Positions 772 to 44,141 of a stretch of 64,000 bases of DNA are shown in pieces. The position numbers and the translations under genes were made by a program. Each line of letters opens with the position of its first letter. Position 1 is the stretch's first letter. Where the stretch lies: positions 1-64,000 of the forward strand of contig JACQQD010000008.1 in the NCBI GenBank assembly GCA_016207165.1. Direction: 5' to 3'. This stretch comes from Microcaldota archaeon (GTDB taxonomy: Archaea > Micrarchaeota > Micrarchaeia > Norongarragalinales > Norongarragalinaceae). The notes beneath the pieces were generated by a model that did not search any database, was not told the origin of the DNA, and saw only the letters and a list, made by a program, of their open reading frames with translations.

Positions 772-844
772 GGGCTCGTGGCGCAGTTGGTAGCGCGCGT
801 GATTTGCAATCACGAGGCCGCGGGTTCGAATCCCGCCGAGTCCA
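772..844 (+). tRNA. tRNA-Ala(TGC) in the 16S-23S spacer
   Basis: Cloverleaf: acceptor GGGCTCG/CGAGTCC, anticodon stem CGTGA-TTTGCAA-TCACG, T-arm GCGGG-TTCGAAT-CCCGC; no encoded CCA. Confidence 0.95.
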
Positions 845-845
845 T

Positions 846-983
846 GAACCTTTTCTTTTGGGAAAGAAAAGCTTCACCAAAAGAAAACGGACTTGGTGGA
901 CCTCCGTGGAACGGGGGTCAGGGGTTACCAAGGACTGGGGGGCGGAGCCCCGCGGTCCGGGTTCTGAATCCCGCCGAGTCCAT
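846..983 (+). repeat. Mini-element E1: hairpin-containing insert plus duplicated tRNA-Ala 3' end
   Basis: GAATCCCGCCGAGTCCAT occurs at 828-845 and again at 966-983; insert contains GGGGTTACCAAGGACTGGGG..CCCCGCGGTCCGGGTTC shared with E4. Confidence 0.8.
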
Positions 984-6216: not shown

Positions 6217-6289
6217 GGGGGATTGGGGTAGCCTGGCATCCTACGGCCTTGGGGTGGCCGCGACCTGAGTTCGAATCTCAGATCCCCCA
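6217..6289 (+). tRNA. tRNA-Pro(GGG)
   Basis: Acceptor GGGGGAT/ATCCCCC, anticodon arm CGGCC-TTGGGGT-GGCCG, T-arm CTGAG-TTCGAAT-CTCAG. Confidence 0.92.
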
Positions 6290-6292
6290 TTT

Positions 6293-6426
6293 TGTTCGCG
6301 CGCTAGCCGGGGGTCGAGGCGGTTGATCCTTGCGATGTTGCCACGGGCAACATCGCTTCCAAACGTTGCGTGCCAAGGGGGCGGAGCCCCCTGGGGCGAC
6401 CGTTGCGAATCTCAGATCCCCCATTT
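6293..6426 (+). repeat. Mini-element E2 plus duplicated tRNA-Pro 3' end
   Basis: CGAATCTCAGATCCCCCATTT at 6272-6292 and 6406-6426; hairpins GCGATGTTGCC-ACG-GGCAACATCGC and GGGGGC-GGA-GCCCCC. Confidence 0.85.
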
Positions 6427-6609
6427 GACCATCAAAGGGGCCTAGCAAGTCCGTAAGGACTTGCGGGTCCCACTAGTCGTTTGCGACTTGTGAAAGAACT
6501 CGGTTTTCCCTATTCTGGTCGGCTTTACCCCTTTCTATTTTTTCGGTTTCTAGTTTTTTGGCGGGTTCGTTCCCGAAGCGTTTTATTTGTTCGCGTTAAA
6601 CGTTGCTGG

Positions 6610-8539: not shown

Positions 8540-8644
8540 GGGCCCGTAACTCAGCCTGGACAGAGTGCCTGCCTTCTAAGCTCGCTTTAAGCGAAAGCGT
8601 GCGAAGCCAGCAGGAAGTCGAGGGTTCAAATCCCTTCGGGCCCG
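8540..8644 (+). tRNA. tRNA-Arg(TCT) with ~30-nt intron at 37/38
   Basis: Acceptor GGGCCCG/CGGGCCC, anticodon stem CCTGC/GCAGG interrupted after CTTCTA, T-arm GAGGG-TTCAAAT-CCCTT. Confidence 0.9.
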
Positions 8645-8646
8645 TT

Positions 8647-8801
8647 CAGGAACGCGGGGAACCTACGGCCCCCCCATTCTAATGGTTCCTCTGACCCCCT
8701 CCCTTTTGATTCGCGAAACAAGTTTGAGGGGGCGAGGCTCAGGCCGGGCCAGGGGGACGCCTCCCCCGGGGCGACCGTTCTGAAATCCCTTCGGGCCCGT
8801 T
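8647..8801 (+). repeat. Mini-element E3 plus duplicated tRNA-Arg 3' end
   Basis: AAATCCCTTCGGGCCCGTT at 8628-8646 and 8783-8801; GGGGCGACCGTT in front of the duplicate is shared with E2. Confidence 0.82.
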
Positions 8802-23516: not shown

Positions 23517-23612
23517 ATGGGCCTGGAGGGATTTAGGAACCCGGACCGCGGGAACCCAGGTTCCCCCAGTCCTTGGTAACCCCGACCCCTCCTGTTTTCA
23601 TGTGCGAATTGT
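23517..23612 (-). repeat. Mini-element E4 plus duplicated tRNA 3' end
   Basis: ATGGGCCTGGAGGGATTT at 23613-23630 and 23517-23534; minus-strand core GGGGTTACCAAGGACTGGGGGAACC..GGTTCCCGCGGTCCGGGTTC matches E1. Confidence 0.85.
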
Positions 23613-23613
23613 A

Positions 23614-23732
23614 TGGGCCTGGAGGGATTTGAACCCTCGGCCACCAGCTTTCCTAGCCAGCGCAGAGGGCGAAACCGTCCTTTGCGGTCGTATAAGACTG
23701 GCGCTCTAAAAACCAGGCTAAGCTACAGGCCC
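23614..23732 (-). tRNA. Intron-containing tRNA, anticodon read as TAT (Ile)
   Basis: Acceptor GGGCCTG/CAGGCCC (with wobble), D-stem GCTT/GAGC, anticodon stem CCAGT/GCTGG with C-T-TAT-A then ~41-nt intron, T-arm GAGGG-TTCAAAT-CCCTC. Confidence 0.8.
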
Positions 23733-43037: not shown

Positions 43038-43367
43038 ATGAAGCGGGGTCAAGGAACCTTTGAGTACGTGTTGCTTTTGGGCGGCGTTTTGTTGATCGTG
43101 GTTTTGGCTATCGTTGTTTTGCAGCAGACGGCGCAACAGGGCTTCCAGGGCGCGGGCCAGCAACAGTGTACGGCGCGCTTGTTGACGGACATTTCCTGTC
43201 GCAACGCGCAAGGCAACTTTAACAGTTGTGGCGTCGTGACGGCCTCCACGTATCAGGGTTGCCAATTCCAGGCAGGCACGTTTACCACGGCCGCGCCGAC
43301 GGGTTGCACCAACACCATTGACGCCGCCACGCAGCGGTACTGCGGCCGCGCGCCGATTGGTCCGTAA
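43038..43367 (+). CDS. Class III signal peptide pilin
   Basis: MKRGQGTFEYVLLLGGVLLIVVLAIVVLQQ and Cys-containing C-terminus. Confidence 0.88.
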   Translation: MKRGQGTFEYVLLLGGVLLIVVLAIVVLQQTAQQGFQGAGQQQCTARLLTDISCRNAQGNFNSCGVVTASTYQGCQFQAGTFTTAAPTGCTNTIDAATQRYCGRAPIGP

Positions 43368-43449: not shown

Positions 43450-43806
43450 TTGTGGTTGTTTGGCTGGTTCATGCGTTTGCGGCGGGGTCAAGGAACCTTT
43501 GAGTACGTGTTGCTTTTGGGCGGCGTTTTGTTGATCGTGGTTTTGGCTATCGTTGTTTTGCAGCAGACGGCTCAAGAAAGTTTTCGGGACGCCGGCTCCA
43601 AGCAGTGCGCGGCGCGCTTGCTCACGGATTTAGAGTGCCACGATGCCGACGGTTCTTGGAATGCGTGCGAGGACGTGGATGCATCGCGGTATGCGGGGTG
43701 CGTGTTTGGGTCGGAGACGTTTACCGCCGTGAGTCCGAGGGCGGGTTGCGAGGCGTTGGATGACCCCTTGACGGAGCGGTACTGCGGCAAGCCCCCGGTG
43801 TCGTAA
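43450..43806 (+). CDS. Class III signal peptide pilin (paralog of 43038-43367)
   Basis: Identical 90-nt N-terminal segment; diverged Cys-rich C-terminus. Confidence 0.88.
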   Translation: MWLFGWFMRLRRGQGTFEYVLLLGGVLLIVVLAIVVLQQTAQESFRDAGSKQCAARLLTDLECHDADGSWNACEDVDASRYAGCVFGSETFTAVSPRAGCEALDDPLTERYCGKPPVS

Positions 43807-43852
43807 GGGCTTTTGGTAAATGCTTTTTAACGAGGGTCACGTCGTGTCTTTC

Positions 43853-44029
43853 ATGCGGAATAAAGTTCGGGCCCAAGCCGCCATTGAATACATTTTACTG
43901 GTTTCGTTTGGCTTGTTCGTCGTCATCGTCGGCTTCACGTTGGCTTTTTACGTGAAGAGCTTCACGGATTCCGCGTTGGCCTTGGTCGCGGAGAACCGGG
44001 ATGCCATGCTGGGCTTTTTGTTGCGTTGA
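43853..44029 (+). CDS. Class III signal peptide pilin-like protein
   Basis: MRNKVRAQAAIEYILLVSFGLFVVIVGFTLAFYVKSF. Confidence 0.82.
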   Translation: MRNKVRAQAAIEYILLVSFGLFVVIVGFTLAFYVKSFTDSALALVAENRDAMLGFLLR

Positions 44030-44141
44030 TTTGATTCGCGTTAGCCGGGGGTTCGGGGGAACCTGGGACTATAGGGGGCGGAGCCCCCTGTGGTCCGGGC
44101 GTGAGAACCGGGATGCCATGCTGGGCTTTTTGCTTCGGTAG
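44030..44141 (+). repeat. Mini-element E5 plus duplicated 3' end of the pilin-like CDS
   Basis: GAGAACCGGGATGCCATGCTGGGCTTTTTG at 43991-44020 and 44103-44132; hairpin GGGGGC-GGA-GCCCCC identical to E2. Confidence 0.85.

Follow-up and report, generated by a model that had tools for sequence, protein, structure and literature searches.

The window, a stretch of 64,000 nucleotides, is part of the 1.27 Mb genome G000 of a Microcaldota archaeon, a member of Candidatus Micrarchaeota. It contains a type IV pilus-like gene cluster in which the last codons of a small gene are present twice, on either side of a short non-coding insert called mini-element E5. The features of this locus are as follows.

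43820–44029, forward strand: target gene for a small class III signal peptide/pilin-like protein; the likely start is at 43853, and the gene carries the putative delivered end
43991–44029, forward strand: copy L of the gene end (attL-like), fused to the gene body, ENRDAMLGFLLR*, ending in TTGCGTTGA; probably the delivered end
44030–44102, forward strand: mini-element E5 proper, 73 nt, non-coding, flanked by both gene-end copies
44050–44063, forward strand: small hairpin of E5, GGTTCGGGGGAACC, predicted by folding
44066–44096, forward strand: main hairpin of E5, GGACTATAGGGGGC-GGA-GCCCCCTGTGGTCC, with T.G pairs, predicted by folding and by covariation over 48 family members
44103–44141, forward strand: copy R of the gene end (attR-like), ending in CTTCGGTAG; probably the native end

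The open reading frames upstream of the target gene encode T2SSE and T2SSF. The nearest homologs of the T2SSE ATPase are 60–76% identical and come from Candidatus Micrarchaeota, mainly from groundwater genomes. The product of the target gene has no Pfam match. Two pilin-like neighbours (43043–43189 and 43482–43628) are 88% identical in their 5' regions and then diverge, a local gene duplication. E5 is matched by our covariance model at 44033–44101 with 77.7 bits. An Rfam identity for E5 was rejected: matches were sub-threshold only, and that to dauA (E value 0.028 on E5) was absent from 19 sister loci.

The two copies at E5 represent the last 13 codons of the pilin-like gene. As the first-pass annotation had reported, 30 nt are identical in both (GAGAACCGGGATGCCATGCTGGGCTTTTTG at 43991–44020 and at 44103–44132), and the final nine nucleotides, TTGCGTTGA at 44021–44029 and CTTCGGTAG at 44133–44141, both read Leu-Arg-stop in frame. 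Its estimate of about 4 in 10,000 for such agreement by chance is also correct, (6/64)(6/64)(3/64) being 4.1e-4. Five bases in three codons differ between the copies, all silently. As a single case, E5 alone would be only suggestive.

We found the same pattern across 16 duplications of protein-gene ends. Among the 61 codons that differ between copies, 58 are synonymous, where neutral change would give a fraction of about 0.21 (binomial p ~2e-35, with the differing codons of one locus not being fully independent events). With the largest case left out, 33 of 36 differing codons are still synonymous. Because the search for duplications used nucleotide similarity, their total divergence is bounded, but silent changes gain no advantage over replacement changes. 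In the SMC gene of the congener G002, 35 codons are duplicated and 25 of them differ, with no amino-acid change. In the TFB gene of the congener G001, three copies of the gene end are mutually silent and have two different inserts between them, for which serial integration is the simplest history. These data support the proposal in the first-pass annotation that coding constraint shaped the evolution of both copies. They contradict the two outcomes it had set against that proposal, namely a simple tandem duplication followed by drift and replacement changes at a neutral rate.

An ortholog of the E5 target gene, 81% identical, is present in G001, where it is empty, and thus offers the relative without an insert that the first-pass annotation had called for. 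This gene ends in TTTTTGCTCAGATAG-GCGGAAAG. Its stop codon TAG and the following CGGAAA are shared with the downstream copy at E5, TTTTTGCTTCGGTAG-ACGGAAAT, and are missing from the copy before E5, TTGCGTTGA-TTTGATTCG. Because the empty gene has the TAG and CGGAAA of the downstream copy, a short match, the native end at E5 is probably the downstream one and the delivered end the upstream one. Two other genes show this polarity clearly. The 5' end of a ThiI-like gene is empty in G002, whereas G000 and G001 have different elements there, not at quite the same point; in both, the outer copy adjoins the conserved flank GGTTTATAGGCTTT. For SMC, the peptide of the outer copy in G001, AMGPTGSRLVEVKLNPA, is also that of both G002 copies, and the inner copy encodes AMGPAGSRLVEVKLNTL, with three different residues. 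Taken together, the ThiI-like gene, SMC and E5 therefore indicate a native outer copy and a delivered inner copy, in support of the earlier suggestion that an incoming element supplied one end and displaced the resident one. Two hallmarks of site-specific integrative elements are thus found here: attL/attR-like direct repeats at a gene end that is rebuilt by element DNA, and empty sites in relatives that reveal the native end (at the ThiI-like gene and E5, with the polarity at SMC).

E5 belongs to a family. Covariance-model matches to its core number 14 in G000, 8 in G001 and 14 in G002, with further ones in other genera, and core-bearing genomes make up 21 of 99 related archaeal genomes. We count approximately 45 well-supported insertions of the hairpin-bearing core, partly from evidence beyond the covariance model; the census, which combines the model with BLAST searches, may have overlooked degenerate copies. 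The inserts are about 70–250 nt long, and no coding sequence was seen in them. The main hairpin is the conserved mark of the family. Over 48 members its stem is 90.7% paired and covaries, with 110 cells changed on both sides compared to 36 in shuffles. One T.G pair is retained in 46 of the 48, which suggests that the strand reading 5' to 3' from gene to core acts in single-stranded form. Some elements (L200 and L017) have a hairpin arm at both ends. Four sister elements lie in the window, each at a tRNA gene.

828–983, forward strand: E1, at tRNA-Ala(TGC); copies 828–845 and 966–983, core 900–963
6273–6427, forward strand: E2, at tRNA-Pro(GGG); copies 6273–6293 and 6407–6427, hairpin GGGGGCGGAGCCCCC at 6377–6391
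8628–8801, forward strand: E3, at an intron-bearing tRNA (8540–8644); copies 8628–8646 and 8783–8801
23517–23630, reverse strand: E4, at an intron-bearing tRNA (23614–23732, reverse strand); copies 23517–23534 and 23613–23630, core 23538–23610

Of 31 tRNA genes in G000, about ten have an insert of this kind. A second type of repeat, TTTTCTTTTGGGAAAGAAAAGCTTCACCAAAAGAAAA, also occurs between duplicated gene ends (L033 1300–1575, L267 ~700–780 and 846–890 of the window) and is possibly a second mini-element family. At another locus, L066 in G002, a mini-element and a tRNA end stand in tandem copy, and the outer copy ends after its left half.

The position of the core relative to the duplication follows a simple rule. 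A duplicated gene end (duplication score at least 10) is present at 33 of 43 right edges of the core and at none of 82 shifted control edges. In most members about 6 nt separate the right foot of the hairpin from the start of the duplication, which is matched by the gene end on the opposite side. The targets comprise tRNA 3' ends, protein-gene 3' ends and protein-gene 5' ends (L020, L196, L211 and L212). In the 5'-end cases the gene points away from the element and the hairpin is antisense to it. Duplications range from ~17 to >100 nt and differ in sequence. A single gene may be entered at different points in different species, as are SMC and the ThiI-like gene. TFB carries one insert in G000 and two different ones in G001, and no element is visible there in G009 and G003. 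At L033 (1250–1580), two stacked partial copies of the 5' end of tRNA-Glu(CTC), of 27 nt and 12 nt, precede tRNA-Glu(CTC).

We consider it likely that E5 is a non-autonomous integrative mini-element that enters a gene end site-specifically and carries a replacement end in its attachment site. A small DNA, probably a circle from a related lineage, would have brought a relative's version of the last 13 codons beside the conserved hairpin core. Site-specific recombination inside the matching stretch, presumably by a tyrosine recombinase acting in trans, would then have fused the incoming end TTGCGTTGA to the body of the resident gene, leaving the native end CTTCGGTAG beyond the element. The predicted junction of the circle is hairpin-GGTCCGGGCGT + GAGAACCGGGATGCC...TTGCGTTGATTTGATTCGCG, and the restored gene would end ...GGCTTTTTGCTTCGGTAGACGGAAA. 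The incoming end would encode the same peptide, and hence the gene would stay functional. Differences between the copies would be silent because the delivered end is the working end during integration and under purifying selection. The elements, at ~70–250 nt, contain no integrase gene of their own and are too short for one; E5 is therefore not classed as an autonomous integrative element, only as working like one. Against this explanation, varied entry points within one gene are unusual for one integrase with one attB, and the core is shared even though the targets are very varied.

The best candidate for the enzyme, and a candidate only, is a tyrosine recombinase acting in trans, perhaps one of ~400 amino acids that is encoded in G000, G001, G002 and G008 (for example at L290 6287–7498) and has a zinc ribbon in most of them (Pfam for the G001 copy). 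This recombinase looks resident in G001 and G002 because its gene adjoins a DEAD-box helicase gene in both. The core is present in 14 of 35 genomes with a homolog of the recombinase versus 7 of 64 without (p 0.001, kinship ignored); without its own genus the association is weaker (p 0.007 to 0.046, kinship ignored). It is broken by G010, a genome that is 71% complete and has six cores and no Pfam integrase hit.

No autonomous relative with an integrase beside the core was found, and the integrase loci that we checked have no core at their ends. The integrase elements of G000 (at tRNA-Glu, at tRNA-Leu, and a provirus at tRNA-Met) were accordingly rejected as parents, the sole exception to the lack of a core being one that lies just outside the provirus attR. 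IMG/VR viral contigs gave no match to three exact core patterns and genome contigs none to one such pattern, collections from which relatives may be missing. Attachment and end sequences in common with an autonomous relative, which would mark a CIME or a trans-mobilised satellite, did not appear in the loci and contigs searched. The provirus itself is ~11.7 kb (G000 contig C1:152884–164672; L078 and L081), lies at an intron-bearing tRNA-Met and has its own tyrosine integrase and, judged by eye, a probable packaging ATPase. Its right attachment site, CCTCCCTCGGCATG, directly precedes a mini-element hairpin core, as if the provirus had entered between the tRNA and an older mini-element. The integrase elements at tRNA-Glu and tRNA-Leu (L076 on G000 contig C3 and L077 on contig C5) are ~4.6 and 5.7 kb and have short att repeats and related recombinases of ~400 amino acids.

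Entry might instead need no dedicated recombinase, if circles bearing a relative's gene end were taken in by single-crossover homologous recombination of the Campbell type. This would account for a segment that always matches its own target, for the variety of targets and for species-specific entry points, and we regard it as unlikely but worth weighing. The longest identical runs in the most diverged pairs are 11 nt (SMC in G002) and 8 nt (TFB in G001), too short for an ordinary homologous crossover if the divergence seen now was that at integration, which makes such a crossover less likely; if the divergence came after integration, the objection falls. The distance from the hairpin to the join also hardly varies, and this points to a defined cut.

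The hairpin arms at both ends of L200 and L017, and the direct repeats that flank the elements as after a staggered cut, recall a transposon-like element with inverted-repeat ends that makes a long target-site duplication near a gene end, with later drift. However, duplications of ~17 to >100 nt far exceed a fixed staggered cut. Drift would also give replacement changes in the outer, non-functional copy, and with 58 of 61 differing codons silent this explanation is strongly disfavoured and quite improbable.

Still less probable is RNA-mediated capture, by which an mRNA end with its 3' hairpin would be reverse-transcribed and returned to the homologous gene. The carried ends do vary in length as if truncated at 5', with a hairpin as the fixed 3' end, and the hairpin strand does keep its T.G pair (46/48). 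However, tRNAs and 5' ends of protein genes are hit as well, with the hairpin antisense in the latter, and no reverse transcriptase domain (PF00078) is found in G000, G001 or G002. A diversity-generating retroelement, which would have a reverse transcriptase and make adenine-directed replacement changes, was rejected, given the missing PF00078 in these three genomes and the silent changes.

Finally, hairpins promote slippage and the copies do stand in tandem, but tandem duplication of a gene end during replication, with neutral drift and the hairpin merely a slippage hotspot, is hardly credible and already contradicted, as the copies of many unrelated genes and tRNAs enclose one and the same core, relatives have empty sites, the changes are silent, and one gene carries two different elements in two species.

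Beyond the integrative reading of E5 itself, we tentatively suggest, as somewhat less probable than not, that these protein-free mini-elements, each a conserved hairpin module with a swappable, recoded target end that, in place of the enzyme, sets its target, are a new class of mobile DNA. If so, one trans-acting recombinase could serve many genes, SMC, TFB and about a third of the tRNA genes among them, and protein-free mini-elements could carry gene ends between species, a route without visible cargo. Target acquisition by an element that has no enzyme of its own becomes testable. The targets include tRNAs and protein genes of basic function such as chromosome segregation and transcription initiation, and these vital genes stay intact though invaded. 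The mini-elements are thus a clean natural experiment on gene-end replacement, and duplicated gene ends with silent-only differences are a simple signature to scan for elsewhere. The literature searched contained no account of such elements from Micrarchaeota; subscription journals lay mostly outside that search.

Several known systems share features with the mini-elements. Phage 21 and e14 enter icd of E. coli, a vital protein gene, and replace its 3' end near-synonymously, as here; unlike the mini-elements, each is a large prophage that encodes its integrase and has one target only. CIMEs are att-flanked remnants of integrative elements that are mobilised by the integrase of a relative. The mini-elements likewise have attL and attR flanks and no integrase. 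However, CIMEs are kilobase-sized with cargo and one target per family, whereas mini-elements are minimal, have many targets and are without a parent among the loci searched.

Like MITEs, the mini-elements are tiny, non-coding, structured and multi-copy and need a trans-acting enzyme. MITEs, in contrast, have short target-site duplications of near-constant length and no diverged copy of the end of a target gene. Assignment to MITEs was rejected, since the duplications span ~17 to >100 nt and differ in sequence and two hairpin arms occur in some elements only. Integron attC sites similarly place a structured single-strand hairpin beside the recombination point, and integrons are also on record from archaea (PMC9668308). 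Unlike integrons, mini-elements have no gene cassette, lie in unrelated gene ends and carry the target end; inspected by eye, their junction sequences differ between elements, and a constant GTTRRRY (core sites GTTRRRY/RYYYAAC) was not seen. Casposons use a Cas1 casposase and make a constant target-site duplication, and the variable, diverged duplications of the mini-elements argue against them.

A further likeness is to gene-rebuilding integrative elements, which are known as kilobase-sized DNAs with an integrase. Archaeal and bacterial elements with tyrosine integrases that target tRNA genes and gene ends include Islander-type islands (PMC4383910) and thaumarchaeal iMGEs, among which NitEve-E2, on entering a protein gene, brings a stop codon of its own (PMC6563490). 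Like such elements, mini-elements target gene ends, restore the gene by an element-borne end, leave the displaced end at the far side and form arrays at one site. They differ in being ~70–250 nt with no coding sequence seen, in their conserved hairpin core, in hitting dozens of targets in one lineage and in matching up to 35 silently diverged codons. In small archaeal genomes, inserts about as long as a tRNA gene do the same at dozens of places. Larger integrative elements already show the principle; what sets the mini-elements apart is their size, their number, the hairpin that they share and the range of their targets, possibly the marks of a new class.
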